From: Microbacteriaceae bacterium
GTDB taxonomy: Bacteria > Actinomycetota > Actinomycetes > Actinomycetales > Microbacteriaceae
DNA: 64,000 nucleotides
Direction of reading: 5' to 3'
NCBI GenBank assembly: GCA_031177985.1
Contig: JAPSJW010000001.1
Location: 434,001 to 498,000, forward strand
Shown: positions 36,148 to 64,000 of the stretch, one piece after another
Layout: each line of letters starts with the position of its first letter
How positions within the stretch are numbered: position 1 is the stretch's first letter
The notes under the pieces: model-generated
What the model was told of the DNA's origin: nothing
The model's database searches: none
Seen by the model: the letters and a program-made list of their open reading frames with translations, nothing else
Made by a program: the position numbers and the translations under genes

Positions 36148-36224
36148 GGCGGCCGTCAGCGGGACGCTCCCAATTCCGCCTCTCCCTGAGGGAGTGAATT
36201 GAGCAAGTCTGGTCTTCCAATGTG

Positions 36225-39200: not shown

Positions 39201-39645
39201 CGCCTCCTGCGAGTTCCGGGTCGGCGACGGGGAGGCGGAGGACTGCGAGGCCACGGTCACGCTTCCCGCGTCGATCGGGGACAGGACGGTCACCATCGTG
39301 GCGGCCGACCATGCCGGCAACGAGACGACTGAGACCGTGCTCGTCGAGGGCCGCGGGATCGACGTCTCGGCGACGGTCGCAACACGCTGCGTCGCGGGCA
39401 AGGTCACTCAGGTCGTGACTCTCACCAACGGCGAGGACGTGCCCGTCTCGACGACGATCCGCTCCACGTACGGGTCGAAGACGACCCCCGCGCTCGCCCC
39501 CGGCAAGACGGTGTCGCACGCCTTCTCGACTCGACTGGGCACCATCCCGAGCGGCTCGGTCACCATCGTGATCTCCGCCACGATCGACGGGGAGTCCGTC
39601 GAGCTCGACAAGGTCGCGCAGCACCCGCCGGCCTTCTGCGGCTGA
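36277..39645 (+). CDS. Secreted multidomain GH43 glycoside hydrolase with LamG and Ig-like domains
   Basis: 1122 residues. Strong AAAGGAG lies 6 nt before ATG. A signal peptide ends near residue 40 (SPALA). A LamG/concanavalin-like domain spans about 45-265, two atrophied Ig-like domains about 270-445 (the SSSNPDVVSPTGDVTRP and ETSAPDVVSTTGIVTRP motifs), then a GH43 propeller at about 448-845. Likely catalytic residues are D513 in LRDPSLLR, E583 in WAPEAF and E738 in EGP. C-terminal Ig-like domains follow, ending in cysteine-containing FCG. It should cut arabinose-, xylose- or galactose-containing side chains of plant polysaccharides. No anchor is seen. Confidence 0.85.
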   Translation: MSSLPAPTGRRSRRRALGLLAVGMASALGFGALTASPALAELPPELTQDLVVHYPLDETSGTTVSDASGNGRDAAIVDDPTGRATWNAGLGLTLPGGAGTATTRQPSVQLPSGLLAGLTEVTVAYDVRPTSNQSQLFTFGTTPDASGVFSATTASPRGATITYPAGGTAAATASGSVTTNAWRHVTITFRGGTAAAPGQLVVYENGVQVAANSNVTIEPQAIAALNSFIGRPSNTAGNANYFAGTVKDFRVYSKVLTADQALALAQETGRVNIAQILSGVDLGDTSQVTSKIMLPAVAGMTWSSSNPDVVSPTGDVTRPLAGQGDATVTLTAQLTYRGLTETKQFEVTVLAEPEDSEKVRVDCAAAIQSDVTDVRGNLELPTTGREWDSTIVWETSAPDVVSTTGIVTRPAHGEPAQEVRLTATATLNDEVETCHYDLTVTPLPENDPYERYLFASFHGGDDGGRNGEQIWISASKDNDPFNWYEVNYDEGTAVSQPILQTVNPPQGQMGLRDPSLLRSPDGDRFYLLATDLKTYQDGQSWSYRQSKGSRNLVVYESDDLVNWSEPRFVKVEDDHAGNVWAPEAFWDEKTGQYIVFWASNLYPSADIANRNTSQISYNRIRVATTRDFVTFSEPTTWVNLDRSTNQNGWGMIDSTMIATDDRIYRLTKDENGFRVLLQYIDSLDDLYDTWGAPETEPYVTNRNPITPLTTDPNAWTMVGNADGSSKWQVPGLNGGNLEGPLVFKDNVEEMYYVFIDYASGGGYVAWRSDSMDRPPSEWEYLGQSWCNTTGLSSNCTAQSATSPYWSLPVSPRHGSVLPITLEEWERVMSHYNSPVHAEASIVTADGTPVQEGAWVNEAPEVEVTWTDFNDTDLAPAWVRLVEGHNDGNRVVGEKVESGIEQGMTLPVTPVEGVSWAQVEYRDASLGGDAVMLWTTDVEYRLDTTSPVITAEADGRELSIDASDPVPANGAENSGLASCEFRVGDGEAEDCEATVTLPASIGDRTVTIVAADHAGNETTETVLVEGRGIDVSATVATRCVAGKVTQVVTLTNGEDVPVSTTIRSTYGSKTTPALAPGKTVSHAFSTRLGTIPSGSVTIVISATIDGESVELDKVAQHPPAFCG

Positions 39646-50298: not shown

Positions 50299-51015
50299 CT
50301 AGGAACGGCCGTACTCGAGCACGCCCGTCGGCTCCGTCCAGTGCTCGCCCGACCGCAGCACCTCGGCCACCAGGCGCTCCAGCCGCGTCGCCGGCTGCAC
50401 CTGAGCCGCATCGAACACCGCCTCGAGCGGTCGACGGAACACGAACTTCACGACGGCGCGGTCGGCATCCAGCGTCGGCTCTGCCGGGGCGACGTGGAAT
50501 CGGCGCGCGAACGCGACGAGGTTGCCCCCGCCGAGACGCTCGAGCCGCGGGTCGAGCAGCCAGGAGGTGCAGCGGAACCGGCGCTCGCCGAAGTGTCGTA
50601 CCGCCCTCGCGAGGGAGTCGTCGACGCTGTCGGGGCTGAGCGGGTCGCCCTCGGGGATGTGGATGGCGCGGCGTGTGGCCCCGCCGCCTCGCTCGTACTG
50701 CAGACGGCCGAGGGCGATGACATCGCCGCGCATCACCTCCAGCAGCCAACCCGTGTCGACCGAGGCGCCGTAGGCGTCCACCTTGCGACCGACGTCGACC
50801 AGCGACGCGTGCGCGATGTCGGAGGAGAGGTCCGCCTCCTCGTAGGCGCGCAACGCATCCGCCTCGAGCGCCGCGAGAGCACCGCGCAGCACGCTCGGAT
50901 CGAGCGGCGCCGGTGGAGGAGCCTCGCCCCCGAACGAAGCGCGCAGGGCGAGGACCGCTGGATGGCTGTCGGGGAGGGCCTGGGTCGCCCCGAGGCCGAG
51001 CAGCTCGCCCGTCAT
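50299..51015 (-). CDS. GNAT_C/DUF5596-like acyltransferase-domain protein
   Basis: 238 residues. The core reads VIALGRLQYERGG...HIPEGDPLSPDSVDDSLARAVRHF...FRCTSWLLDPRLERLGGGNLVAFARRFHVAP, matching the GNAT-like C-terminal domain family. Members are uncharacterised and found in many Firmicutes and Actinobacteria. It overlaps the aldolase stop by 4 nt (ATGA), so it is translated with the sugar genes. A role in modifying the amino-sugar or its acetyl group is speculation. Confidence 0.65.
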   Translation of the reverse strand: MTGELLGLGATQALPDSHPAVLALRASFGGEAPPPAPLDPSVLRGALAALEADALRAYEEADLSSDIAHASLVDVGRKVDAYGASVDTGWLLEVMRGDVIALGRLQYERGGGATRRAIHIPEGDPLSPDSVDDSLARAVRHFGERRFRCTSWLLDPRLERLGGGNLVAFARRFHVAPAEPTLDADRAVVKFVFRRPLEAVFDAAQVQPATRLERLVAEVLRSGEHWTEPTGVLEYGRS

Positions 51016-51845
51016 GCCCCGAGCAGCCGCAGCAGACGCTCCACCTCGTCGCGCACGGCGTCGCGCGCCGGGGCCAGGTACCGGCGCGGGTCGACGAGGG
51101 ATTCGTCGGTTGCGAGTGCCTTGCGCACCTCGGTGGTGAAGAGCCCGTTGAGGTGGGTCGAGATGTTGATCTTCGTCATGCCGGCCTGGACGGCGCCAGC
51201 AAGCTCGTCGTCGCTCAGTCCCGAGGACCCGTGCAGCACCAGCGGCACCCCGGTCGATGCCTTCAGCGCCGCGATGAGCTCGCGATCGACCGTGGCGACC
51301 CGCGACGTCATGGCGTGCGACGTGCCGACCGCGACGGCCAGAGAGTCGACCCCCGTCGCCTCGACGAACTCGGACGCCTCGTCGGGGCGGGTGCGAGCGC
51401 CGGGAGCGTGCACGCCGTCCTTGCCGCCGACCTCCCCGAGTTCGGCCTCGACCCGCACGCCTCGCGCGTGGCAGTGCTCGACGACGGCGCGGGTCGTGGC
51501 GACGTTCTCGTCGTAGGGCAGCGCGGAGCCGTCGAACATGACGCTGTGCACCCCGAGCTCGACGGCCTCATGCACGAGGGCCACGTCCTCGGCGTGGTCG
51601 AGGTGCACGATCGCGGGAACGGCCGCCGACCGGGCGAGTGCCAGTGAGGCGAGGGCGATCGGGGCGAGACCGCCGTGGTACCGGGCGGCGTTGTGGCTGA
51701 TCTGCAGGACCACCGGGAGCCCGGCGCGCTCCGCGCCGCCGACGATCGCCTCGGCGTGTTCAAGCAGCACGACGTTGAAGGCACCGAGGCCGCGGCCGGC
51801 GGCGGCGGCCTCGGACACGGGATCGGACGGGAGCGTGGCGGTCAT
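51012..51845 (-). CDS. Class II (zinc) fructose/tagatose-bisphosphate aldolase
   Basis: 277 residues. Zinc and active-site blocks are visible: IVHLDHAEDVALVHEAVELGVHSVMFDGSALPYDEN, VEAELGEVGGKDG and LVLHGSSGLSDDEL, then NISTHLN. This is the FbaA/KbaY/GatY type that splits tagatose- or fructose-1,6-bisphosphate into dihydroxyacetone phosphate and glyceraldehyde-3-phosphate. With the PfkB kinase directly upstream it supports a tagatose-6-phosphate route. Confidence 0.88.
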   Translation of the reverse strand: MTATLPSDPVSEAAAAGRGLGAFNVVLLEHAEAIVGGAERAGLPVVLQISHNAARYHGGLAPIALASLALARSAAVPAIVHLDHAEDVALVHEAVELGVHSVMFDGSALPYDENVATTRAVVEHCHARGVRVEAELGEVGGKDGVHAPGARTRPDEASEFVEATGVDSLAVAVGTSHAMTSRVATVDRELIAALKASTGVPLVLHGSSGLSDDELAGAVQAGMTKINISTHLNGLFTTEVRKALATDESLVDPRRYLAPARDAVRDEVERLLRLLGA

Positions 51846-51852
51846 CTTCACC

Positions 51853-52803
51853 TCAGGGGATCGGGACGGGGAGAGGGAACTGCGGACGGTGCTGAGCATC
51901 GAGTCGGGCGGCGAGCTCGGGGAGCACCGCTGGATCGATCTGCCCGGCGGTGGGAGAGAGCACGGCGGCGGCGCCGACGAGCGACGCCCAGCGCAGCGCC
52001 TCGTCGAGCGGATGCCCCAGCTGCAGGGCGGCCACGAGACCGGCGGTTGCGGCGTCGCCGGCCCCGGTGGGGTTGCCGCTGACTCCCGGAACTGCGACGG
52101 CCGTCGCATGATGGCCGTCGGCGGTCAGCGCGACGAGACCGTCCGACCCTCGCGACACCGCGATGGCGCGGGCGCCGCGGGTCAGAAGCTCCCGCATCCC
52201 CGCATCGAGGTCGTCTGCGCCGGTCGCGCCGAGCAGCTCCTGCACATTGGGCTTCAGCAGCTCCGCTCCCGCGTCGGCGGCGGCGAGCAGGTGCACCCCG
52301 GATGCGTCGACCAGCACCCGTCCGCCTGCCGTGCGACCGGCGTCGACCAGCGCGGCGACCCGGTCGGAGTCTGTTCCTGGAGGGAAGGAGCCGGCGACGA
52401 CCAGCATGCCGCCCGGCTCGAGGGCAGCGCCCGCGGCATCCGCGAGACGGCGCCAGGCCTCGTCGTCGAGCGGCTCTCCCGGCTCGGAGTAGAGCGTGGG
52501 ATGGTCGGAGCCGCCGACGACGGCCACCGTGGTGCGGGTCTCCCCGGCCACCTCGACGGTGCGGGCCTCCACACGATCGCGCTCGAGCGCCTCGCGCATC
52601 CAAGTGCCCGCGCTTCCGCCGAGCGGATGCACGGCGACGGCGTGCACCCCGAGGTGACGCAGTACCCGGACTACGTTGAGTCCCTTGCCGCCCGGCCGCC
52701 GGACGACCTGCTCGACGCGGATCGTCTCACCGACGACCTGGCGCGGCACCGTGTAAGTGACGTCGACCGCCGGGTTCGGGGTCACGACGACGACGGAAGC
52801 CAT
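51853..52803 (-). CDS. PfkB-family tagatose-6-/1-phosphofructokinase-type kinase
   Basis: 316 residues. N-terminal TPNPAVDVTYTV and RRPGGKGLNVVRVLRHLG, LKPN at 183-186 and the GAGD anion hole with catalytic D250 (GNPTGAGDAATAGL) fit the LacC/FruK branch. It probably phosphorylates tagatose-6-P at C1. Its start overlaps the end of the deacetylase gene by 22 nt. Confidence 0.85.
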   Translation of the reverse strand: MASVVVVTPNPAVDVTYTVPRQVVGETIRVEQVVRRPGGKGLNVVRVLRHLGVHAVAVHPLGGSAGTWMREALERDRVEARTVEVAGETRTTVAVVGGSDHPTLYSEPGEPLDDEAWRRLADAAGAALEPGGMLVVAGSFPPGTDSDRVAALVDAGRTAGGRVLVDASGVHLLAAADAGAELLKPNVQELLGATGADDLDAGMRELLTRGARAIAVSRGSDGLVALTADGHHATAVAVPGVSGNPTGAGDAATAGLVAALQLGHPLDEALRWASLVGAAAVLSPTAGQIDPAVLPELAARLDAQHRPQFPLPVPIP

Positions 52804-53900
52804 GACCCCTCCTTCATGACGCGGCGCACGCGGCCGGCGTCGAGCTCCACGAGGTCGGCCCGGTGCCCGGGGGCGAGCGACGGTTCGGCGAGCCCGAGGG
52901 CTCGGGCCGGAGCAGTGGAGGTCGACGCGACGATCTCGGGCAGGTCCGCCCCGCGGGCCAGCAGCCGCTCGACGGCACCCGCCACGGACGTCGTGCTCCC
53001 AGCGAGCGATGATCCGTCTACGAGCATCGCGACGCCGCCCGACACGTCGACCTCGGCTGCACCCAGCAGGTAGCGGCCGTCCGAGAGCCCGGTCGCCGCC
53101 ATCGCGTCCGAGACGAAGGTCATCCGACCTGCGGCGGCGCCCCGGACGAGGTCGACGACCCGGTCCTCGAGATGCACTCCGTCGCCGATGACCTCGACCG
53201 TCAGCCTCGGGTCGGTGAGTGCGACGCCGACGGGCCCCGGCGCGCGGTGGTGCAGCGGGGGCATCCCGTTGAAGACGTGGGTGATCACGGTCGCTCCCGC
53301 GTCGACCGCCCGCAGCATGGTCGCCTCATCCGCGTCGGTGTGGCCTAGAGCCACGGTGACGCCTGCGTCGACGAAGCGCCGGACCGCGTCTATACCGCCG
53401 GGCAGCTCGGGCGCCAGGGTCACGAGGCGCAGCGCCCCGTCGGCGGCCGCCAGCAGCGCGGCGACGGATGCGGGGTCCGGCTCCAGCAGGAGGCGCGGGT
53501 CGTGAGCACCGCGGCGGGCGTCTGCGAGGAAGGGCCCCTCGAGGTGGAGCCCCTCGAGCGCTCCGTCGTGCACGAGCGGCGCGAGCTCCCGCAACCGGGC
53601 GATGAGCACGTCGAGCTCAGCCGTCGCGAGTGACGCGACCAGCCGCGTGCTGCCGACGGACGCGTGGTAGCCGATCGCGGGCGAGGGGTCGACGCCCGGA
53701 GCGCCGAAGTCGGCACCCAGCGCGCCGTGCACGTGTCCGTCGATGAAGGCGGGCAGCAGCCCAGCGAGCTCGTCATCCGGCTGCCTCGGCGGCACCCCGG
53801 TTCCGGCGTCGGCGATGACCCCGTCGCGCACGAGCAGCCAGCCGGGGCCGTCCTGAGCGGAGTCGACGATGCGGGAGGCGGAGATCAGGCGCTCGGTCAT
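52782..53900 (-). CDS. nagA: N-acetylglucosamine/N-acetylgalactosamine-6-phosphate deacetylase
   Basis: 372 residues of the amidohydrolase fold. Expected residues are all seen: H56/H58 in DGHVHG, E121 in HLEGP, H187 in LGHTDA, H208 in THVFNGM and D265 in FVSDAM. It removes the acetyl group of an amino-sugar-6-phosphate. The operon partners (SIS isomerase, PfkB, aldolase) suggest GalNAc-6-P rather than GlcNAc-6-P. AgaA would then be the functional name. Confidence 0.9.
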   Translation of the reverse strand: MTERLISASRIVDSAQDGPGWLLVRDGVIADAGTGVPPRQPDDELAGLLPAFIDGHVHGALGADFGAPGVDPSPAIGYHASVGSTRLVASLATAELDVLIARLRELAPLVHDGALEGLHLEGPFLADARRGAHDPRLLLEPDPASVAALLAAADGALRLVTLAPELPGGIDAVRRFVDAGVTVALGHTDADEATMLRAVDAGATVITHVFNGMPPLHHRAPGPVGVALTDPRLTVEVIGDGVHLEDRVVDLVRGAAAGRMTFVSDAMAATGLSDGRYLLGAAEVDVSGGVAMLVDGSSLAGSTTSVAGAVERLLARGADLPEIVASTSTAPARALGLAEPSLAPGHRADLVELDAGRVRRVMKEGSWLPSSS

Positions 53901-54763
53901 TGTTCCGCCGCCAGATCGGAGGCCATCATCGCAGCGCCGAGAGCGGCGGCGAGGTCGCCGTGGTGCGCGGCGACGAGTCGCGGCATCCGCAGCCCGGGCA
54001 GCCGCGATGCGAGGGCAGAGGCGAGCGGGTCGAGCAGAAGATCTCCGGATGCGGCGAGTCCGCCCCCCACGATGATCACGTCGGGCGCGACGGTCGCGGT
54101 CATCCCGGCCAGCGACATGGCCAGAAGGTCGACGGCTTCCGTCCAGACGGCAGTGGCATCAGGGTCGCCCGCAGCCACTCGCCGGGCGACCGCCTCGGCA
54201 TCGGGCTCGCCGGCCGCTCGCGCGATGGCGGCAGCCGAGGCGACCTCCTCCATCCGTCGTCCCTCGTGCTCACCGGCGGCGATCGGCAGCTGACCGATCT
54301 CGCCCGCCCAGCCGCCGGACACGACAGGCACGCCTTCGATCAGTGTCGCCGCCGCGATGCCGGTGCCGATCGGCACGAAGACGACGGTTCCGCTCACTCC
54401 CGCGGCTGCACCTGTGCGGGCCTCGGCGAGAGCGCCCGCGCGCACGTCGTGACCGAACGCGACGGGTCGGCTCAGGGCGCGCTGCAGCAGGTCCTGCAGC
54501 GCAGCGTCGTGGAAGCCGACGTTGGCAGACCGCACCGCGACGCCGCGCGCCTCGTCGACGACACCGGGTACGACCACCCCGATCGCCGCAGGGGCACCCC
54601 CGAGCGCGCGCACGACCTCTCCCACCGCGGCGGCCACGAGCTCGCCGGTCGGGTCAGGCGACGGAGTCGACGCCCGGCGCTCCGCCGTCACCGCGCCCCG
54701 CTCGACCAGCAGTGCCTTGATCGTCGTGCCGCCGACGTCGACGCCGACGACGGCCTCGCTCAT
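53897..54763 (-). CDS. ROK-family sugar kinase lacking the zinc motif
   Basis: 288 residues. ATP-binding GVDVGGTTIKALLV at the start, catalytic Asp in GHDVRAG, and PIGTGIAAA. The usual ExGH...CxCGxxGC zinc motif of ROK kinases is replaced by AGEIGQLPIAAGEHEGRRM with no cysteines. It likely phosphorylates GalNAc or GlcNAc at C6. It overlaps both neighbours by 4 nt. Confidence 0.85.
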   Translation of the reverse strand: MSEAVVGVDVGGTTIKALLVERGAVTAERRASTPSPDPTGELVAAAVGEVVRALGGAPAAIGVVVPGVVDEARGVAVRSANVGFHDAALQDLLQRALSRPVAFGHDVRAGALAEARTGAAAGVSGTVVFVPIGTGIAAATLIEGVPVVSGGWAGEIGQLPIAAGEHEGRRMEEVASAAAIARAAGEPDAEAVARRVAAGDPDATAVWTEAVDLLAMSLAGMTATVAPDVIIVGGGLAASGDLLLDPLASALASRLPGLRMPRLVAAHHGDLAAALGAAMMASDLAAEQ

Positions 54764-55638
54764 GCCAGGATGACGGACCGCGTGAGCGAACGCGGGTTGT
54801 CGGGGTCGAGGCCCTTGCCCTTGGCCAGGGCGACGGCGAAGCGCTGGGCGACGATCAGCCCGGCCTGCGGATCGAGGTCGTGCTGCACGAAGCGGGCGCC
54901 GGTGGCGGCGACCTCGTCGGCCAGGCCGTCGGGAGCGGGGCCGAAGCTCCACACCAGTCGACCGGGCTGCGCGATCGCGATCGGGCCGTGCCGGTAGTCC
55001 ATCGCGGGGTAGGACTCCGACCAGAACTGCGCGGCCTCGCGGGTCTTCAGCGCGGCCTCGTAGGTGAGCCCGACCGCCCAGCCGCGAGCGATGAAGGTGC
55101 TCTGGTCGACGTCGACGAGGTCGTCGATCGGGATGTCGAGCGCCTTCTCGGCATCGGCCACCAGCGTGTCGACGTCGTCGCCGAGATGTGCACGCAGCAG
55201 CGTCAGCGCCGACGTGGCGAAGCGGGTCTGCACGACGGAGCGCTCGTCGGCGAAGGGCAGAGCCACCGTCTCGTCAGCGAGGCCGGCCGCGGGGGAATCG
55301 CTCACGGCCGTGATCAGGGTGGTCGGGGTGGCGGGCAGGGCGCTCAGCAGGTCGATGATCTCCGTCGTGGTGCCCGAACGCGAGATCGCGACGACCCGGT
55401 CGTACTGCCTGGTGAGCGGGAACTCGCTGCCGGCGAAGGCATCCGTCTCGCCGTGCCCGAGGGTCTCGCGGCGGACGGCGTAGGCCATCGCGATGAACCA
55501 GCTGGTGCCGCAGCCGACGACCGCCACCCGCTCGCCGGGACGGGGCAGCGCGTCGGCGACCGTCGGGACGAGTTCGGCGGCGGTGCGCCAGGTGGCCGGC
55601 TGAGACGCGATTTCCGCATCGACGAAGGGAGAGGGCAT
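54760..55638 (-). CDS. SIS-domain aldose-ketose isomerase/deaminase (AgaS-like)
   Basis: 292 residues from ATG (MPSPFVD) with GGAAGAAG upstream. Two SIS domains: VAVVGCGTSWFIAMAYAVRRE and VVAISRSGTTTEIIDLLS in the first, and YEAALKTREAAQFWSESYPAMDYRHGP in the second. AgaS converts galactosamine-6-P to tagatose-6-P plus ammonia. It is the first gene of the leftward operon, divergent from the DeoR gene. Confidence 0.82.
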   Translation of the reverse strand: MPSPFVDAEIASQPATWRTAAELVPTVADALPRPGERVAVVGCGTSWFIAMAYAVRRETLGHGETDAFAGSEFPLTRQYDRVVAISRSGTTTEIIDLLSALPATPTTLITAVSDSPAAGLADETVALPFADERSVVQTRFATSALTLLRAHLGDDVDTLVADAEKALDIPIDDLVDVDQSTFIARGWAVGLTYEAALKTREAAQFWSESYPAMDYRHGPIAIAQPGRLVWSFGPAPDGLADEVAATGARFVQHDLDPQAGLIVAQRFAVALAKGKGLDPDNPRSLTRSVILA

Positions 55639-55704
55639 GAACTTCTTCCGCTCGGGAGCCGCGCTGATCAGCGGTGGCACAAGATTGATCGAACTGCCTC
55701 CATT

Positions 55705-55720
55705 TGAGCAGAATCGCTCA
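55705..55720. promoter_or_regulatory. Inverted repeat in the divergent SIS-DeoR region
   Basis: TGAGC-N6-GCTCA at 55705-55720 lies between the divergent starts of the SIS and DeoR genes, a fitting place for the regulator's operator. The match to known DeoR/AgaR sites is not strong. Confidence 0.4.
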
Positions 55721-55780: not shown

Positions 55781-56569
55781 ATGACGCAGCAGCAGCGCCT
55801 GAACGTGGTACTCGAGCTCGTGAGCGAGCGCGGCAGCGTGTCGATCTCCGAGGTGAGCGACGCGCTCGGCGTCTCGACCGCGACTGTGCGCCGTGACCTC
55901 AACACCCTCGCCGAGCAGCGCCTCGTGACGCGCACGCACGGCGGGGCGGCCGCGCTCGGCTCGGGCTACGAGCTGCCGCTGCAGTACAAGATCGCGCGGC
56001 AGGCGGAGGCGAAGGTCGCGATCGCGCGGGCGGTCGCCGACCTCGTGCGACCCGGGGAGTCCGTGGGGCTCAACGGCGGCACCACCACGAGCGAGGTGGC
56101 ACGGATGCTCGGCCGCAGCGAGCGGCTGCGCCCGCAGGGCGACGCGCCGGGCGTCACGATCGTCACCAACGCGCTCAACATCGCGTACGAGCTCTCCGTG
56201 CGCGAGCACGTGAAGATCGTCGTGACCGGAGGGGTGCCCCGGCGGCAGTCGTACGAGCTGGTCGGCCCTCTGGTCGGCGCGTCCCTGCGCGACTTCAGCC
56301 TCGACACCGCGGTGCTGGGCGTGGACGGGATCAGCGGCACCTTCGGCGCCACCACCGTGCACGAGGGCGAGGCGGACGCGAGCCGCGAGATCGCCCGGGT
56401 GGCGCGCCGGGTCGTGGTCGCCGCCGACGCGACGAAGATCGGCCGCAGCACCTTCGCGCGCATCTGCCCGCTCTCCCGGATCGACCTCCTCGTCACCGAT
56501 CAGGACGTCTCCGCCGAGTTCGCCGCGGAGCTCGCAACCGCCGGGGTCGACCTGCTCGTCGCCTCCTGA
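55781..56569 (+). CDS. DeoR-family regulator (AgaR-like)
   Basis: 262 residues from ATG 55781 (MTQQQR). Helix-turn-helix SVSISEVSDALGVSTATVRRDLNTLAEQRLVTRTHGGA and sugar-phosphate sensor DeoRC blocks GLNGGTTTSEVARML, NALNIAYEL, LGVDGI and ADATKIG. DeoR regulators with this sensor bind a phosphorylated sugar, here probably tagatose-6-P or galactosamine-6-P. It should control both the leftward catabolic genes and the rightward transporter genes. Confidence 0.88.
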   Translation: MTQQQRLNVVLELVSERGSVSISEVSDALGVSTATVRRDLNTLAEQRLVTRTHGGAAALGSGYELPLQYKIARQAEAKVAIARAVADLVRPGESVGLNGGTTTSEVARMLGRSERLRPQGDAPGVTIVTNALNIAYELSVREHVKIVVTGGVPRRQSYELVGPLVGASLRDFSLDTAVLGVDGISGTFGATTVHEGEADASREIARVARRVVVAADATKIGRSTFARICPLSRIDLLVTDQDVSAEFAAELATAGVDLLVAS

Positions 56570-56740
56570 CAGACCGCCGGGCGCCCGCGTGTTACGGCGC
56601 GGTAAACAATGCGGCGCGGATGGCCGGTGCCATCGTTCGAGCATCTACTGTTCCAACATGCTCATTTCGGCGGCAGTAGTGACATTTCCGAGCACCTGGT
56701 GCAGGATGGCCCCATGCACGACGACGTGGAAGACGGCTCG

Positions 56741-57943
56741 ATGACGTCCTCGGGACTCAGGGTCGCGGTCATCGGCTTCGGCGCCCGCGCCTACATCGCC
56801 GGGCACGTACCCGCGGCCCGCCCCGACGCCAGGGTCGTCGCGATCGTCGAGCCGAATCCCCAGGCTGGGGAGCGAGGCCGACTGGCACACCCCGAGGCCG
56901 TCCTCTTCACGAGCGTCGACGAGCTCATTGCGGCTGGCGGCATCGACGCGGCCATCGTGACGACACCCGATCACACCCACGCCGACATCGCGACCGCGCT
57001 GCTCGGCGCGGGCATCGCCGTCTACCTCGAGAAGCCGCTCGCCATCACGCTCGAGCAAGCCGACCGCGTGCTCGCCGAGGCCGCTCGCACCAAGACCCCC
57101 CTCTACGTCGGGCACAACTTCCGGCACGCGGCTGTCGTGCGCACGATGCGCGACGTGATCGAACGGGGCCGCATCGGCGAGGTGCGCGCCGTGTGGGTGC
57201 GCCACTTCGTCGGCAACGGCGGCGACTACTACTTCAAGGACTGGCACGCAGACCGCAGCAGGACGAACACGCTGCTGCTGCAGAAGGCCAGCCACGATAT
57301 CGACGTCGTGCACTACCTCGCCTCCGGCTACACCCGCCGAGTCGTGGGCATGGGCGACCTCATGCTCTACGGCGGCATCACCGACCGCCGTGAGCGGGTC
57401 GGCGAGACGATGCCCGACTGGTTCTCGTTCGACAACTGGCCGCCCGCAGCGCAGACCGGTCTCAACCCGGTCGTCGACGTGGAAGACGTGTCGATGATGA
57501 TGATGCGCCTCGACAACGGTGTACTCGCGAGCTATCAGCAGTGCCACTTCACCCCCGACTACTGGCGCAACTACACGGTCATCGGCACCGAGGGGCGGCT
57601 CGAGAACATCGGCGACACGGCAGGCGGCGTCGTGCGGGTCTGGAACCGTCGGCACGAGTGGCAGGTCGAGGGCGACGAGGAGTACCCGATCGAGGGCGTC
57701 GCCAGCGGCCACGAAGACGCCGACCTGCTGACGATGACCGAGTTCTTCGCCTCCGTCGTCGAAGGAGCGCCCACCATCGTCTCGCCGATCGCCGCCCGCG
57801 AAGCGGTAGCGGCCGGGGCCCTCGCGGCGGAGTCGCTGCGCAACGGCTCGGTGCCGCTCGACGTGCCGGAGCTCGCTCCCGAGATCCTCGCGCATTTCTC
57901 CCCCACCATGTCCCAGCACAGCGGAAGGACCACCCCCCGATGA
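56741..57943 (+). CDS. Gfo/Idh/MocA-family oxidoreductase
   Basis: 400 residues from ATG 56741 (an in-frame ATG lies at 56714). Rossmann motif VAVIGFGARAYI, EKP catalytic motif as LEKPLAI, then GGDYYFKDWHADRSRTNTLLLQKASHDIDVVHYL and a substrate domain typical of sugar dehydrogenases. Its stop overlaps the start of the binding-protein gene (ATGA), so it works with the transporter, probably oxidising or converting the imported sugar. Confidence 0.85.
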   Translation: MTSSGLRVAVIGFGARAYIAGHVPAARPDARVVAIVEPNPQAGERGRLAHPEAVLFTSVDELIAAGGIDAAIVTTPDHTHADIATALLGAGIAVYLEKPLAITLEQADRVLAEAARTKTPLYVGHNFRHAAVVRTMRDVIERGRIGEVRAVWVRHFVGNGGDYYFKDWHADRSRTNTLLLQKASHDIDVVHYLASGYTRRVVGMGDLMLYGGITDRRERVGETMPDWFSFDNWPPAAQTGLNPVVDVEDVSMMMMRLDNGVLASYQQCHFTPDYWRNYTVIGTEGRLENIGDTAGGVVRVWNRRHEWQVEGDEEYPIEGVASGHEDADLLTMTEFFASVVEGAPTIVSPIAAREAVAAGALAAESLRNGSVPLDVPELAPEILAHFSPTMSQHSGRTTPR

Positions 57944-59235
57944 AGACCCAACCCCACGCCTTCGCCCGACGAGCACTCGCGGCGACGGCGGCGGCCACCG
58001 TCGCGATCGTGATCAGCGGATGCTCCGCCGGCGGCGGAGGCAGCGCGCCGGCCGAGTATGAGGCCCCCGACAGCGACCTCGAGGCGTCGATCACCTACGG
58101 AGTCTGGGACCAGAACCAGGTGCCGGCGATCGAGGAGAACATCGCCCTCTTCAACGAGCAGTTCCCCAACATCGACGTGACCGTCAACGTCACCCCGTAC
58201 GCGGAGTACTGGACGAAGCTGCAGACCCAGGGCTCGAGCGACACGCTGCCCGACGTGTTCTGGATGAACGGACCCAACATCGGGCTCTACGGGTCGAACG
58301 GCCTGCTCGAGCCGATCGCCGGCGCCGTCGAGGCCGGCGACATCGACCCCGCGAACTACCCCGAGGCGCTCGTCGACCTCTACACGATCGACGACGTGCA
58401 GTACGGCGTGCCGAAGGACTTCGACACGATCGGCATCTGGGCCAACCGCGCGCTCTTCGAGCAGGCGGGCGTCGAGCTGCCCGAGGGCGACTGGACCTGG
58501 GACGAGTTCCAGCAGACCGCCGCCGACATCTCGGAGGCGCTCTCGGCTGAGGGCATCTACGGCGCCGCGGGCGGCATGGACGGCCAGACGACCTACTACA
58601 ACACGATCTTCCAGGCCGGCGGCACCGTCATCGACGGCGACACCTCCGGCTACGCCGCTCCCGAGGCGCAGGCGGGCATCCAGTTCTGGACCGACCTGAT
58701 CGCGAGCGGCGGCTCACCCACCATCCAGCAGCTGACCGACACCACGGGCGACCAGTGGTTCACCTCGGGCAAGACGGCGATGTACTGGGGCGGCAGCTGG
58801 TTCCGATCCGCCCTCATCGACTCCGACCTCGATGTCACCGTGCTGCCTCTCCCCACCGGCGAGGAGCAGGCGACTGTGATCCACGGCGTGTCGAACGTCG
58901 TCTCGGCGACCTCGCAGAACAAGCAGGCGGCGCAGGCCTTCCAGGTCTTCCTCGCGAGCGAGGAGGCGCAGGCACAGCAGGGTGAAGCAGGCGCCGTGAT
59001 CCCCGCCTTCACCGGCACGCAGGGCGCCTTCACCGAGTCGATGCCCGACGCCGACCTGCAGGTCTTTCTCGACGCGCTCGAGTATGCGCAGCCGCTGCCG
59101 GTCAGCAACAACTCGGCCGCGTGGAACGCCTTCGAGGCCGAGCTGCTGCCGCAGGCGTTCTCCGGAGAGCGGCCCGTCGAAGAAGTCACGACCGAGCTCG
59201 CCGAGCAGATGGACGCCGCGCTCGCGGAGGAGTGA
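57940..59235 (+). CDS. CUT1 sugar ABC transporter substrate-binding lipoprotein
   Basis: 431 residues. Lipobox IVISGC near residue 27. The mature protein matches SBP_bac_1 with SITYGVWDQNQVPAIEENIALFNEQFPNIDV and TGDQWFTSGKTAMYWGGSWF. It follows the oxidoreductase and precedes two permease genes. Context suggests an amino-sugar or a short glycan released from a GalNAc-containing polymer. Confidence 0.9.
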   Translation: MKTQPHAFARRALAATAAATVAIVISGCSAGGGGSAPAEYEAPDSDLEASITYGVWDQNQVPAIEENIALFNEQFPNIDVTVNVTPYAEYWTKLQTQGSSDTLPDVFWMNGPNIGLYGSNGLLEPIAGAVEAGDIDPANYPEALVDLYTIDDVQYGVPKDFDTIGIWANRALFEQAGVELPEGDWTWDEFQQTAADISEALSAEGIYGAAGGMDGQTTYYNTIFQAGGTVIDGDTSGYAAPEAQAGIQFWTDLIASGGSPTIQQLTDTTGDQWFTSGKTAMYWGGSWFRSALIDSDLDVTVLPLPTGEEQATVIHGVSNVVSATSQNKQAAQAFQVFLASEEAQAQQGEAGAVIPAFTGTQGAFTESMPDADLQVFLDALEYAQPLPVSNNSAAWNAFEAELLPQAFSGERPVEEVTTELAEQMDAALAEE

Positions 59236-59237
59236 GC

Positions 59238-60212
59238 GTGACGACCGTCTCCCGGCCGACCGCTGTGCCGGCCCCGTCCACACCGGACGGGGCCGGCCCG
59301 GCAGGGCCTCCGGCACACACACCGCGACGGCGGCCGTCGCTGCGAGGCGACGGGGCATGGCCCTGGCTCTTCGTCACCCCGCTCGTGGCGGGCGTCGCGG
59401 TCTTCTACCTGTGGCCGATCCTCCAGACCGCGGGCTACTCGCTCACCGAGTCGGGTCCGTTCGGCGGGTCGACCTTCGCGGGCATCGAGAACTACCTCGC
59501 GCTGTTCGCTGACCCGAGGCTCTACCTCTCCCTCGCGAACACCCTGCTCTACACCGGCATCGTGCTGCTCGGCATCCCGCTCGCCGTGGTGCTCGCGAGC
59601 CTGTTGAACCTGCCCGGCCTGCGGTTCGCCTCGCTCTACCGCGTGCTGTTCTTCCTGCCCTACGTCGCGATGCCCACAGCGGTCGCCATGGTGTGGCGGG
59701 TCATCTTCAACGGCGACTTCGGGCTGCTCAACTTCCTGCTCGGCACCGTGGGCATCGAGGGTCCCTACTGGATCAGCACCCCGGGCGCCGCGGTGGTCGC
59801 CGTCGCGATCGTGGGTCTCTGGTCGTCGCTCGGCTTCAGCATGATCGTGCTGGCGGCGGGCCTCAAGAACATCCCGCCCGAGCTGTACGAGGCGGCGGAG
59901 CTCGACGGCGCCTCCCGCTGGCGGCAGTTCCGGGCGATCACGGTGCCGCTGCTCACCCCGAGCATCTTCTTCGTCACGATCATCACCGTCATCTCGAGCT
60001 TCCAGCTCTTCGACCTGCTCTACGCGATCCTCGGCAGCAGCAACCCCGTGCTGCCGCGCAGCATGTCGCTCGTCTACTTCTTCTACCGCGAGGGCTTCGT
60101 CGACAACGACAAGGGCTACGCCGCGGCTATCGCCATGGTCGTGTTCCTCATCATCGGCCTCGTGACCGCCGTGCAGTTCCGACTCCAGAGGAGGTGGGTC
60201 CATGGCGACTGA
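59238..60212 (+). CDS. CUT1 sugar ABC transporter permease (MalF-like)
   Basis: 324 residues from GTG with GGAGG 7 nt before. A Pro-rich cytoplasmic N-terminus is followed by six membrane segments. The EAA loop is PPELYEAAELDGASRWRQFRAITVPLLTPS. It overlaps the next permease gene by 11 nt. Confidence 0.9.
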   Translation: MTTVSRPTAVPAPSTPDGAGPAGPPAHTPRRRPSLRGDGAWPWLFVTPLVAGVAVFYLWPILQTAGYSLTESGPFGGSTFAGIENYLALFADPRLYLSLANTLLYTGIVLLGIPLAVVLASLLNLPGLRFASLYRVLFFLPYVAMPTAVAMVWRVIFNGDFGLLNFLLGTVGIEGPYWISTPGAAVVAVAIVGLWSSLGFSMIVLAAGLKNIPPELYEAAELDGASRWRQFRAITVPLLTPSIFFVTIITVISSFQLFDLLYAILGSSNPVLPRSMSLVYFFYREGFVDNDKGYAAAIAMVVFLIIGLVTAVQFRLQRRWVHGD

Positions 60213-61071
60213 GTCGATCCTCGTGCCCGAAGGGGCGAGACGACGCGGAGCATCACGGCGGAGGGGCTCACACGTCGTCGCCCACGTCGTGCTCGGCACC
60301 GGCGGGTTCATCATGGCGTTCCCGTTCCTGTGGCAGATCATCATGTCGCTGTCGACGAATGCCGAGGTGCAGAGCGTCACGCCGGTGCTCTGGCCGGCAG
60401 AGCTGCAGTGGTCGAACTATGCGGAGGTCTTCGACCGCCTCCCCTTCTTCGACCAGCTGCAGACCTCGGTGCTCATCACGGTCATCCGCACCGTCGCGCA
60501 GATCCTGTTCTGCACGCTCGCGGGCTACGCCTTCGCGCGGATGCGGTTCCGCGGCAGCGGTGTGCTGCTCGCCCTCGTGCTCTCGATCCTGATGGTGCCG
60601 TCGCAGGTCTACCTGCTGTCGCAGTACCAGATCATCCAGGGCCTCGGGCTGCTCGACAGCCTCGGCGGCCTCGTGCTGCCCGGGCTCTTCAGCGCCTTCG
60701 GCACCTTCCTCATGCGCACGGCGTTCCTCGCGATGCCGGCCGAGCTCGAGGAGGCCGCGCGGCTCGACGGCGCGAACCCGTTCCAGATCTTCTGGAAGAT
60801 CATGCTGCCGCTCGCGCGGCCCTCGATCAGCGTGCTCGCGATCACGACCGCCCTCTGGTCGTGGAACGAGCTGCTCTGGCCGCTCGTCATCACCACGTTC
60901 AGCGACCGCATGCCGCTCTCCGCGGGACTCGCGACGCTGATCGGCGACCGCACCACCGACTACCCGGTCGTCATGGCGGCGAGCCTGCTCGCCATGGCGC
61001 CCATCCTCATCCTGTTCATCGTGCTGCAGCGCCGGGTCATCGACGGCCTGGCGTCCAGCGGCCTGAAGTGA
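60202..61071 (+). CDS. CUT1 sugar ABC transporter permease (MalG-like)
   Basis: 289 residues, a basic N-terminal tail and six membrane segments. The EAA loop is PAELEEAARLDGANPFQIFWKIMLPLARPS. It completes the transporter with the MalF-like gene, with no ATPase gene nearby. A LAATG-anchored protein gene starts 15 nt later. Confidence 0.9.
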   Translation: MATESILVPEGARRRGASRRRGSHVVAHVVLGTGGFIMAFPFLWQIIMSLSTNAEVQSVTPVLWPAELQWSNYAEVFDRLPFFDQLQTSVLITVIRTVAQILFCTLAGYAFARMRFRGSGVLLALVLSILMVPSQVYLLSQYQIIQGLGLLDSLGGLVLPGLFSAFGTFLMRTAFLAMPAELEEAARLDGANPFQIFWKIMLPLARPSISVLAITTALWSWNELLWPLVITTFSDRMPLSAGLATLIGDRTTDYPVVMAASLLAMAPILILFIVLQRRVIDGLASSGLK

Positions 61072-61085
61072 TTCGAAGGAGCATC

Positions 61086-62630
61086 ATGAAAGCCCACATT
61101 TCCCTCGGCGCCCTGGGCGTGGCGGGAGCCCTCCTGCTCGCCCCGGTGCCGGCCGTCGCGGCCGAGCCCGAGACGACCACCGTGACCTACGTCGAGAACG
61201 ACACGGTCATCCCCAACCCGCAGCGCGGGTTCTACCACCACACCGAGACGCACTACCGCGAAGACGGCACCGGCTACACGCCGCTCGACGGCGCGACGCT
61301 GGAGTCGTTCCGCGAGGAGGGGATCACCCAGATCCTGCGGGTGTTCTACCTGGAGAAGTTCGCCGACCAGGCGCAGCTCGACCAGGAGTTCCTCGACCTC
61401 GTCGCCGCCGACTACGCCACCGCGCGCGCCGCAGGCGTCTCGGTGATCACCCGCTTCGCCTACGTGCAGGGCGGCGCGTGGCCGTACCTTCCGCCGTACG
61501 GCGACGCTCCGGTCGACATCGTGCTCGGCCACATCGATCAGCTCGGGCCCGTGCTGCGCGCGAACGCCGACGTGATCCCGGTCGTGCAGAACGGCTTCAT
61601 CGGGCTGTGGGGCGAGGGCTACTACACCGACTACTTCGTCGCCGACCCAGCGAACCCGGGCGTCGTGACGGATGCGGACTGGGCCAACCGCTCGGCCGTC
61701 ACACAGGCGATCCTCGACGAGCTCCCCGTGGACCGCTCGGTGCAGGTGCGCACGATGCTCTCGAAGCAGCGGATGTTCGATGTGCCGACCGGCGCTGAAG
61801 GTGCGATCGACGCGTCCGAGGCCTGGAGCGGGAGCGACATCTCCCGTGTCGGCCACCACAACGACTGTCTGCTCGCGGCACCGGATGACTGGGGCACGTT
61901 CCTCAGCGACCCGATCGAGCTCGACCAGCAGTACCTCGAGGCCGACAGCCTCTACGTGCCGATCGGCGGCGAGACCTGCAACGTGAACCCGCCCCGCTCG
62001 GAGTGGCCGAGCGCCTCCGCCGAGATGGAGCGGTACCACTACAGCTACCTCAACCGCGACTACCAGCCGCTGGTGCTCGAGTCCTGGGGTGAGGAGGGGC
62101 TCACCATCACGGCGCAGCGCCTCGGCTACCGCTTCGTGCTCGAGTCGAGCACGGTGACGACAGCCGAGGACGGCACGGCGACCGTGCAGCTCACGGTGCG
62201 CAACGAGGGCTGGGCCTCGCCCTACAACCCGCGGCCGGCGACACTCGTGCTCGAGAGCGCGGCGGGCGACCGAGTCGTCGCCCTCGACGGCGGGGCGGAT
62301 GTGCGCACCTGGCTCCCGGGAACCACGACTACCCTGACGGCGACGCTCGCCGACCTGCCGGTGGGCTCGTACGAGCTCGCGCTCGCGCTGCCCGCGCCCG
62401 ACGAGGCGACGAGCGGCGACCCGCGATTCGCGATCCAGACCGCGAACGAGGGCACCTGGAACGCAGAGACCGGACGCAACGAGCTCGGGCAGACGCTCAC
62501 CGTGACGGCCGACGCGCCGGAGCTCGCGGCCACCGGCACCGAGCTCACCCCGCTCGCGGGGATGCTGGCGCTCGGCGCGGCGCTCACCGGCATCGTGCTG
62601 CTGTCGGCTCGCCGCCGAACGCAGGCCTGA
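61086..62630 (+). CDS. LAATG-anchored DUF4874/DUF4832 surface protein, candidate glycosidase
   Basis: 514 residues. Signal peptide to about residue 27. The DUF4874-like part starts IPNPQRGFYHHTETHYREDGTGYTPLD and continues with LRVFYLEKFADQAQLDQEFLDL, resembling a TIM barrel, and VQNGFIGLWGEGYYTDYF carries a candidate catalytic Glu. The DUF4832 part contains VGHHNDCLLAAPDDWGTF, GGETCNVNPPRSEWPSA and a beta-sandwich end. LAATG at 480-484, a hydrophobic helix and RRR form the sorting signal. It is operonic with the CUT1 transporter. Confidence 0.8.
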   Translation: MKAHISLGALGVAGALLLAPVPAVAAEPETTTVTYVENDTVIPNPQRGFYHHTETHYREDGTGYTPLDGATLESFREEGITQILRVFYLEKFADQAQLDQEFLDLVAADYATARAAGVSVITRFAYVQGGAWPYLPPYGDAPVDIVLGHIDQLGPVLRANADVIPVVQNGFIGLWGEGYYTDYFVADPANPGVVTDADWANRSAVTQAILDELPVDRSVQVRTMLSKQRMFDVPTGAEGAIDASEAWSGSDISRVGHHNDCLLAAPDDWGTFLSDPIELDQQYLEADSLYVPIGGETCNVNPPRSEWPSASAEMERYHYSYLNRDYQPLVLESWGEEGLTITAQRLGYRFVLESSTVTTAEDGTATVQLTVRNEGWASPYNPRPATLVLESAAGDRVVALDGGADVRTWLPGTTTTLTATLADLPVGSYELALALPAPDEATSGDPRFAIQTANEGTWNAETGRNELGQTLTVTADAPELAATGTELTPLAGMLALGAALTGIVLLSARRRTQA

Positions 62631-62690: not shown

Positions 62691-64000
62691 TCAGGCGCGC
62701 GGCAGGTACTGCACCGGCGGGAACGCCCGCGCCACGAGCGCCCGCAGCGCCTCGAGGTCGCCCTCGACGTAGCCGTGGGCACGGGCCTGCACGAGGATGT
62801 TGCCGAGCGCCGTCGCCTCGACGGGACCGGCGAGCACCGGGAGTCCCGTCGCGTCCGCGGTGAGCTGGCAGAGCAGCTCGTTGAGGCTGCCGCCTCCCAC
62901 GAGGTGCACCACGCTGATCGAGCGGCCCGACAGCTCGCCGGCCTTCCGCACGGCGCGCGCGTAGGCATCCGCGAGGCTCTGCAGGATGCTGCGCACGAGC
63001 TCGGGGCGCGACTGGGGCGCCCGCAGTCCGCGGCTCGTGAACCAGGCCTCGATGCGCGCGGGCATGTCGCCCGGGGCGAGGAAGATCTCGTCGTCGGCGT
63101 CGAACACCGGCACGTCGCCCTCGACGGCGGCCGCCTGGTCGAGCAGCCGGCGCAGCGACACCGTCTCGCCCGAGCGCTCCCAGTCGCGGATGCTCTCGCT
63201 CAGCAGCCAGAGCCCCATCACGTTGTGCAGGTACCGCACGCGCCCGTCGACGCCGCCCTCGTTCGTGAAGCCGGCGAGGCGGCTCTCCTCGCTGAGCACC
63301 GGACGCTCGAGCTCCACGCCCACGAGCGACCAGGTGCCGCAGGAGATGTAGGCGAAGTCCTGCCCGGTGGCCGGCACCGCGACGACGGCGGATGCGGTGT
63401 CGTGCGACCCGACGGTGGTCACGACCGCGTTGGTGTCGACTCCGCGACGCGCCGTCGCGGTGAGCCGACCGACGCGGGTGCCTGGGTCGACCAGCTCGGG
63501 GAAGATGCCGCCCGGGATCGCCAGCCGCTCGGCGAGGTCCCGGTCCCAGGTGCCGTCCGTGACGCTCACGAGTCCGGTCGTCGAGGCGTTGGTGCGCTCC
63601 GCGACGCCCCGCCCGGTGAGCCAGTAGGCCAGCAGGTCGGGCAGCAGCAGGAACGAGTCGGCGAGCTCGAGCATGCCGGCCGTGCGGTCGGCCGTCAGCT
63701 GGAAGAGCGTGTTGAACGGCAGGTGCTGCAGGCCGTTGCGGCGGTACAGCTCGTCGGCCGGCACGAGCGCGTGCGCCTCAGCGACGGCGGCGAGGTTGCG
63801 CTCGTCCCGGTAGGCGTAGGGGGTGCCGAGCATCCGCCCGCCGCGCAGCAGCGCGTAGTCGACCGCCCACGAGTCGATGCCGATGCTCGACACCTGCGGC
63901 TCCTGGCGCACGGCCGCGGCGAGGCCCTCGACGACGTCGCGGTACAGCTCGAGGATGCTCCAGTGCAGCCCGTCGAGGGTGCGCACCGGCCGGTTCTGAA
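62691..64000 (-). CDS. rhaB: Rhamnulokinase (FGGY family), 5' partial
   Basis: The frame is open past the right edge. About 436 residues are visible, lacking only the N-terminal ATP-phosphate loop. FGGY landmarks: RTLDGLHWSILELYRDVVEGL, SIGIDSWAVDYALL, GRMLGTPYAYRDERN, SHDTASAVVAVPATGQDFAYISCGTWSLVGVE and VVHLVGGGSLNELLCQLTADATGLPVLAGPVEATALGN. This is the RhaB branch that phosphorylates L-rhamnulose. It implies a rhamnose operon to the right. Confidence 0.87.
   Translation of the reverse strand, partial: QNRPVRTLDGLHWSILELYRDVVEGLAAAVRQEPQVSSIGIDSWAVDYALLRGGRMLGTPYAYRDERNLAAVAEAHALVPADELYRRNGLQHLPFNTLFQLTADRTAGMLELADSFLLLPDLLAYWLTGRGVAERTNASTTGLVSVTDGTWDRDLAERLAIPGGIFPELVDPGTRVGRLTATARRGVDTNAVVTTVGSHDTASAVVAVPATGQDFAYISCGTWSLVGVELERPVLSEESRLAGFTNEGGVDGRVRYLHNVMGLWLLSESIRDWERSGETVSLRRLLDQAAAVEGDVPVFDADDEIFLAPGDMPARIEAWFTSRGLRAPQSRPELVRSILQSLADAYARAVRKAGELSGRSISVVHLVGGGSLNELLCQLTADATGLPVLAGPVEATALGNILVQARAHGYVEGDLEALRALVARAFPPVQYLPRA

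Follow-up and report, generated by a model that had tools for sequence, protein, structure and literature searches.

Introduction

Pel-type polymers of N-acetylgalactosamine (GalNAc) bind biofilms together, and galactosaminogalactan is a matrix polymer of fungi. In streptococci and clostridia, pelDEADAFG operons are adjoined by DUF4832 genes (PMC7112168), and SIR_1591 of Streptococcus intermedius, a TIM-barrel/DUF4832 protein of the pel operon, was reported to disrupt preformed GalNAc-rich Pel aggregates in purified form, with an effect comparable to that of the PelA hydrolase domain (PMC12345266). Its deletion produced no aggregation phenotype, and the word 'catalytic' is absent from that paper's main text. 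Here, we analyze a locus of a Microbacteriaceae bacterium that encodes a protein with the domains DUF4874 and DUF4832 (hereafter the DUF protein) next to genes for sugar import and amino-sugar breakdown. The window, i.e. the whole stretch of 64,000 nucleotides under study, covers contig C7:434001-498000 of a 3.16-Mb genome. Its + strand carries, at positions 55781-62630, genes for a DeoR-type regulator, a Gfo/Idh/MocA protein, a CUT1 binding lipoprotein, two permeases and the LAATG-anchored DUF protein, divergent from an amino-sugar operon on the - strand (51012-55680) that encodes SIS, ROK, NagA-like, PfkB and class II aldolase proteins.

We propose, with a probability of roughly 0.6, that the DUF protein is a wall-anchored glycoside hydrolase for alpha-linked polymers of GalNAc or galactosamine (GalN), which would feed import and a tagatose-phosphate route. 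An original prediction, made from the DNA letters of the window, had envisaged a surface system that cuts a GalNAc-containing glycan, imports the product and degrades it. That idea stands in outline and is now better supported, while its statement that DUF4874/DUF4832 proteins lack an established activity is out of date in view of the report on SIR_1591; an activity of this family was reported in 2025, and the locus probably represents a variant of it devoted to catabolism.

Results

Predicted fold and anchoring of the DUF protein

The DUF protein matches the Pfam families DUF4874 (PF16173; residues 44-224, 140.6 bits, cut-off 30.1) and DUF4832 (PF16116; residues 254-454, 197.5 bits, cut-off 29.2). 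Its structure was modeled with AlphaFold2 from an alignment of 56 rows, which comprised the window's protein and its counterparts from 55 of the 79 loci of the named set described below (24 named loci were left out). As originally suggested, the model shows a TIM barrel (predicted local distance difference test score 91.6, predicted template modeling score 0.86), with strands at residues 48-56, 82-88, 119-125, 166-168, 218-221, 255-262, 293-297 and 321-323. Overall, the protein consists of a signal region, the barrel (approximately residues 44-349), a beta-sandwich (350-473), the LAATG motif and a C-terminal helix (490-512). Glu177, located in the LWGEGYY motif highlighted in the original prediction, lies nine residues past strand 4, and Glu296, in a GGE motif, lies within strand 7. 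Both residues, which form a candidate catalytic pair, are invariant in all 56 aligned rows; in a wider set that includes more distant copies (n=14), Glu177 is kept in 14 and Glu296 in 13 proteins. The tied top rows of a VIA-align comparison include the glycoside hydrolase (GH) family 5 structure 4v2x (Z 14.6, root-mean-square deviation 4.1, 248 residues) and the beta-amylase (GH14) 1b90 (Z 14.3, root-mean-square deviation 4.3, 256 residues), and Foldseek retrieved a mannanase, GH30, an endoglycoceramidase, GH5, PslG and GH35. The TIM barrel, the invariant glutamate pair and the structural matches to GH5 and GH14 thus argue for a hydrolase.

Neither single-sequence nor profile searches identified a sequence relative of the DUF protein in the PDB. 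A plasmid search returned five records, three of them spanning at least 80% of the protein, and added little. Distant DUF4832 copies (L049, L054, L055 and L056-L059) have WGEW or YGEW/FGEW where others have WGEG at the conserved glutamate, and the transporter and SIS genes of the window were not found near them.

The genome contains a single sortase match, which belongs to class E (NCBIfam, 229.8 bits, cut-off 160), and class E sortases serve LAXTG signals (PMC5148588). With its LAATG signal followed by a hydrophobic helix at residues 490-512, the DUF protein has the features of a class E substrate, which points to a surface location. The C-terminal signals differ among its relatives, including LAATG, LAETG, LANTG, LPETG and LPDTG, with none in L036, L038 and L040.

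Gene neighborhood of DUF4874/DUF4832 homologs

Of 299 genomes in the family, 29 have DUF4832 matches, 25 of them above cut-off, and 20 strong DUF loci besides that of the window were compared. Seven of these keep the order DeoR-Gfo-binding protein-permease-permease-DUF divergent from SIS-ROK-NagA, so that the gene linkage exceeds what chance would give. In other loci, the DeoR-to-DUF part is kept without SIS (L044), SIS directly adjoins the DUF gene with the transporter present (L052 and L053), or the arrangement is reshuffled (L038 and L040). Eight of the 20 have no transporter match, namely five of genus g50, whose genomes carry the SIS gene elsewhere, and L049, L054 and L055 (31-33% identical). 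The SIS gene itself is found in 88 of the 299 genomes, many of them without a DUF protein, and the pathway is therefore commoner than the DUF protein.

To place these loci in a wider context, we searched for neighbors by tblastn (30% identity, 70% coverage) in this family set and in three further sets. The named set comprises 79 loci, 18 of them spanning less than 15 kb, from the best 80 of 528 relatives and is therefore biased toward close relatives; six of its loci also belong to the family set (L036=L067, L037=L060, L038=L085, L045=L061, L048=L073, L053=L064). The Bacteroidota set contains 17 regions (16 of 395 genomes), and the distant actinobacterial set contains four loci (DUF4874 being present in 3 of 396 genomes of the phylum). 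Forty 20-kb stretches at hand-chosen, round-number and thus non-random positions in genomes of the family and Bacteroidota sets, none from genomes exclusive to the named set, served as controls. SIS/AgaS or GH109 genes, the latter encoding members of an alpha-N-acetylgalactosaminidase family, lie near the DUF gene in 11 of 20 family, 16 of 79 named and 6 of 17 Bacteroidota loci, as opposed to 0 of 40 control regions (Bacteroidota 6/17 versus 0/20 controls, one-sided Fisher test calculated by hand, ~0.005). The expected proximity of GalNAc genes is thus seen in several lineages.

The distribution of these markers was also followed on a quick tree of 127 proteins (LG+G4, with Shimodaira-Hasegawa-like approximate likelihood ratio support only), about which the program gave warnings (long branches that meet, uneven letter composition), and which leaves out the six twice-fetched loci and the window's own row and has 11 short-flank rows unlabeled. 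The GalNAc label, carried by 32 rows, requires 14 changes, 11 of them forced by starred branches, compared with an average of 28.2 in shuffles. It is thus clustered, yet recurs in separate lineages, and the changes can be gains or losses alike.

GalNAc genes are by no means found everywhere: most of the neighbors sampled are unrelated in Curtobacterium, Plantibacter, Kineosporia, Nonomuraea, Actinoplanes and others, and L056-L059 lack any marker. Eleven of the 63 named loci free of markers contain GH114 (eight of them also PelF), and one more contains only the DUF2194 gene of the same operon. Copies from Kribbella and Streptomyces have a CUT1 permease match adjoining the DUF gene in L081, L088 and L097, the first two of which also contain a ROK gene, and six Kribbella loci (L080-L084 and L110) contain two consecutive DUF genes.

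Loci in Bacteroidota and linkage to Pel synthesis

Among the Bacteroidota, L092 and L093 contain genes for SusC/D, AgaR, an AgaS-family protein, a sugar kinase, an aldolase and a Melibiase-domain protein, with AgaR of L093 scoring 277.3 bits (cut-off 260) and its AgaS-family protein 360.4 bits (below the cut-off of 529.2). In L095, a GH109 gene lies directly 5' of the DUF gene, accompanied by SusC/D, AgaR (over cut-off) and AgaS-family genes. The C-terminal domain PF21252 confirms GH109 in L095, L211, L128, L200, L202 and L209, while L131 was assigned by BLAST only. AgaS-family genes are also found near the DUF gene in L121, L091 and L085, the last of which also belongs to the family set (356-482 bits, all under cut-off, E <=1e-104). 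Clustering of the neighbors of 43 Bacteroidota DUF loci and 20 controls, with clusters listed when present in at least four loci, returned a PKD protein (13 DUF loci versus 0 controls), SusD (17 versus 2), SusC (16 versus 2), GH109 (7 versus 0), AgaR, AgaS, GH31 and an APH kinase (5 versus 0 each), and a sugar kinase and an aldolase (4 versus 0 each); several further clusters are confined to Flavobacterium. An APH protein of Bacteroides thetaiotaomicron is a GalNAc kinase (PMC11992087).

Two additional neighbors recur in these loci. A fused Glucosamine_iso (NagB) and PIG-L protein is encoded in 5 of 43 DUF loci and 0 of 20 controls (e.g. L202:605-2533 and L128:16342-18255). A membrane protein without a confident Pfam family is present in 8 of 43 DUF loci (L095:17147-18241, L128, L131, L199, L200, L202, L208 and L211) and 1 of 20 controls. 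The version from L211 weakly resembles human heparan-alpha-glucosaminide N-acetyltransferase (HGSNAT; phmmer E 3.1e-5 over 74 residues), an enzyme that acetylates alpha-glucosamine ends.

In loci of the Flavobacterium type, the DUF gene converges on a Pel-like operon, with DUF2194 in 12, GH114 in 11 and PelF in 8 of 26 named Bacteroidota loci, counts that were drawn without Flavobacterium controls. Since the rows concerned form one side of a single tree branch, this linkage counts once. In L101, Pfam identifies GH114 (E 1.8e-22), DUF3492 with GT4 (E 1.9e-34), as well as a PelG-like match that, at 26 bits, misses the cut-off of 29; the equivalent of the latter protein in L096 gave no PelG match. 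The L101 operon further encodes a 656-aa protein without a Pfam family (L101:15497-17467) and a 1289-aa DUF2194 protein (L101:11624-15493). Turnover of the cell's own Pel was considered for the window's protein and rejected, since its genome has no PelG match.

Amino-sugar operon, importer and regulation

The genes described in the original prediction, their order and their coordinates were all borne out (Table 1), with starts assigned by eye from the list of open reading frames. The catabolism of GalNAc via tagatose phosphates needs a deacetylase, a deaminase, a hexose-phosphate kinase and a ketose-bisphosphate aldolase, whereas that of N-acetylglucosamine has no need for the last two. Since its deacetylase and deaminase genes occur together with genes for such a kinase and aldolase, the divergent operon probably handles GalNAc. 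The GalNAc degradation operon predicted earlier is therefore real as an operon, while its assignment to GalNAc follows from the gene combination, its SIS and NagA-like proteins scoring below model cut-offs. By score, the SIS protein is not AgaS (TIGR02815, 15.3 bits, cut-off 529.2); the PfkB kinase and the aldolase exceed subfamily-level cut-offs only, and the AgaR model is the best NCBIfam match of the DeoR-type regulator, though under its cut-off.

Table 1. Positions in the window of the genes and operator-like words of the locus.
Feature	Position	Strand	Basis
DUF4874/DUF4832 protein, 514 aa	61086..62630	+	Pfam; AlphaFold2 model; invariant columns; class E sortase in genome
CUT1 permease 2	60202..61071	+	BPD_transp_1, 63.3 bits
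CUT1 permease 1 (GTG start by eye)	~59232..60212	+	BPD_transp_1, 69.4 bits, searched from 59259
CUT1 solute-binding lipoprotein	57937..59235	+	SBP_bac_1, 138.5 bits, searched from 57949; lipobox-like VISGC by eye
Gfo/Idh/MocA protein, possible intracellular glycosidase or glycoside dehydrogenase	56741..57943	+	Pfam; Foldseek of weak model
Operator-like word AAATGAGCA, before Gfo/Idh/MocA gene	56659..56667	-	
DeoR-family regulator, AgaR-like	55781..56569	+	DeoRC, 145.7 bits; AgaR model (NF040755), 188.2 bits, cut-off 260
Operator-like word ATTTGAGCA, between divergent SIS and DeoR genes	55702..55710	+	
SIS-domain sugar-phosphate deaminase/isomerase	54760..55680	-	SIS, 31.8 bits; GlmD model, 77 bits, cut-off 580
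ROK-family sugar kinase	53897..54760	-	ROK, 137.7 bits
NagA/AgaA-like amino-sugar-phosphate deacetylase	52782..53900	-	TIGR00221, 181.5 bits, below cut-off 225.65
PfkB kinase, candidate tagatose-6-phosphate kinase	51853..52803	-	TIGR03168, 226.3 bits, over cut-off 216.4
Class II ketose-bisphosphate aldolase, candidate tagatose-bisphosphate aldolase	51012..51863	-	TIGR00167, 220.7 bits, over cut-off 215.6

The importer had been described as a full CUT1 transporter; its binding protein and two permeases are present, but the operon contains no ATPase gene, the rest of the genome not having been searched for a shared one. The model of the Gfo/Idh/MocA protein is weak (predicted local distance difference test score 71.7), and Foldseek searches with it listed 1,5-anhydrofructose reductases, sulfoquinovosidases dependent on nicotinamide adenine dinucleotide (NAD) and glycoside dehydrogenases together.

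Inspection by eye of the SIS-DeoR and DeoR-Gfo intergenic regions of 13 oriented loci revealed a common word, AWWTGAKCA. It has three matches in the window (0.46 expected), two of them in the two intergenic regions, and 19 of its 20 matches over 240,170 bases fall inside SIS-DeoR or DeoR-Gfo regions. Both regions contain it in 6 of the 13 loci and at least one region in 11, the exceptions being L036 and L065. These counts overstate independence, because the word was chosen from the same related sequences. The third match in the window (36197-36205, +) lies ~70 bases before the gene for a secreted 1122-aa protein (36277-39645), which by eye has a GH43-type look with LamG and Ig-like parts.

A rhamnulokinase-like gene (62691-63998, -; 379.9 bits versus a cut-off of 527.95) is located 3' of the DUF gene and extends as far as the end of the window. 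A link to rhamnose was considered and rejected: no match to this gene was found near the DUF gene in 120 DUF loci (some counted twice) or in 40 control loci, and it therefore looks like a local neighbor.

Discussion

Taken together, our results suggest a route in which the DUF protein, held at the cell wall, would cut alpha-linked, GalNAc- or galactosamine-rich polymers such as bacterial Pel or fungal galactosaminogalactan, probably in an endo-acting manner. The CUT1 binding protein and permeases would import the polymer fragments, and the Gfo/Idh/MocA protein may free GalNAc inside the cell. The ROK kinase, NagA-like deacetylase, SIS deaminase, PfkB kinase and class II aldolase could then convert GalNAc via tagatose phosphates into intermediates of glycolysis, with the DeoR/AgaR-like repressor possibly controlling both divergent operons. 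The choice of substrate rests on the SIS/AgaS and GH109 neighbors, the linkage to Pel-like operons and the activity of SIR_1591 on Pel aggregates. The gene content, the predicted fold, the invariant glutamate pair, the recurring gene linkage and the common upstream word were established computationally, whereas catalysis, substrate, glycosidic linkage, cutting mode, the specificity of import, the Gfo/Idh/MocA step and regulation are inferred.

Several observations weigh against this proposal. SIS/AgaS and GH109 are absent from the fetched flanks of 63 of 79 named, 11 of 17 Bacteroidota, 9 of 20 family and all 4 distant loci, and 20 neighbor proteins from 14 marker-free loci are, by Pfam, mostly products of unrelated genes, with the exception of Gfo/Idh/MocA proteins (L072 and L083), a LacI regulator, two solute-binding proteins, a CBM5/12 protein and a GH31 protein. 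The Foldseek TM-scores of the DUF protein are low (~0.3 on the query), L055 has Val in place of Glu296, and kinship with SIR_1591 was judged by domains and description rather than by sequence. Within the window, the SIS, DeoR and NagA-like proteins score under the AgaS, AgaR and NagA cut-offs, and a GH109 identity of the Gfo/Idh/MocA protein was ruled out, as Pfam finds only Gfo/Idh/MocA families and no PF21252 domain. Finally, a DUF4832 gene is part of a Klebsiella exopolysaccharide cluster (PMC6258164), and a DUF4874-DUF4832-dockerin protein occurs in a lignocellulose-degrading rumen consortium (PMC7480376), a hint of other substrates. Given these two relatives and the mostly unrelated neighbors of marker-free loci, many homologs may work as enzymes on their own or target different glycans.

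It is conceivable, if unlikely, that the hydrolase feeds the GalNAc pathway from a glycoconjugate, such as a mucin-type O-glycan or a side chain of teichoic acid or lipopolysaccharide, instead of a polymer. The presence of GH109, GH31 and APH kinase genes around Bacteroidota copies indeed recalls the mucin/GalNAc locus of B. thetaiotaomicron with its GH109 and APH-type GalNAc kinase (PMC11992087), whereas the association of DUF4832 genes with Pel-like synthesis operons that contain PelF and GH114 (see also PMC7112168) and the action of SIR_1591 on Pel aggregates (PMC12345266) speak for a polymer. We give similarly little credence to a glycoside hydrolase with another substrate, e.g. a plant or other bacterial glycan, that adjoins amino-sugar genes for other reasons. 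Homologs among unrelated genes, the dockerin-borne relative (PMC7480376), the resemblance to GH5 endoglucanases and the many SIS-containing family genomes that lack a DUF protein would fit such an enzyme; against it, SIS/AgaS or GH109 genes recur near DUF genes in differing arrangements and phyla but in none of the 40 controls. A non-catalytic surface protein that holds the polymer for uptake, as the reported likeness of the C-terminal domain of SIR_1591 to carbohydrate-binding domains might suggest (PMC12345266), is highly improbable in view of the candidate catalytic pair, invariant in 56 of 56 aligned rows, and the disruption of aggregates by SIR_1591.

If a wall-anchored hydrolase for GalNAc or GalN polymers is indeed at work, it would explain two domains of unknown function present in several phyla and enlarge the range of polymer-cutting enzymes under study as biofilm dispersants by one group. 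It is tempting to speculate, albeit with considerably less confidence, that DUF4874/DUF4832 proteins constitute a widespread, as yet unnamed family of glycoside hydrolases that act on partly deacetylated alpha-GalNAc/GalN polymers, found both in producers, within pel operons, and in consumers with utilization loci. Consumers might then either use an HGSNAT-like membrane acetyltransferase to re-acetylate terminal galactosamine for GH109 (Bacteroidota) or employ a new type of NAD-dependent intracellular Gfo/Idh/MocA glycosidase (Microbacteriaceae). Our literature search, made without preprints and most subscription papers, found no described locus through which another microbe eats Pel-type polymers or galactosaminogalactan, and the DUF4874/DUF4832 family is not named in the titles or abstract openings found on GalNAc-polymer utilization. 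Each step is open to experiment, given the named enzyme, the two candidate catalytic residues, the importer, the pathway and the candidate operator that the locus provides.

Compared with known systems, the DUF protein shares its predicted TIM barrel with clan GH-A (GH5, GH30 and GH35) and GH14, and its candidate acidic pair, past strand 4 and within strand 7, would fit the layout of these families; however, identity in the structural rows is ~6-15%, and the protein has no Pfam glycoside hydrolase match. Its proposed substrate class resembles that of the PelA hydrolase domain, GH114, Sph3 and Ega3, and a GH114 gene lies near DUF copies of the Flavobacterium type, yet Pfam finds none of these families in the window's protein. 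With the aga/gam GalNAc pathway of Escherichia coli and Shewanella, the locus has in common the predicted steps of a deacetylase, an SIS deaminase, a tagatose-6-phosphate kinase and a tagatose-bisphosphate aldolase as well as a DeoR-type regulator, whereas it combines import by an ATP-binding cassette system with a ROK kinase in place of the phosphotransferase system of E. coli, and its SIS protein falls outside the AgaS family by score. The closest parallel, by description rather than sequence alignment, is SIR_1591, likewise an extracellular protein in which a DUF4832 beta domain comes after a TIM barrel, with a reported similarity to beta-amylases (PMC12345266), which also rank near the top for the window's protein. 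SIR_1591, however, has an N-terminal transmembrane helix and belongs to a pel synthesis operon (PMC12345266), whereas its counterpart in the window carries an LAATG wall anchor and is encoded beside an importer and an amino-sugar operon.

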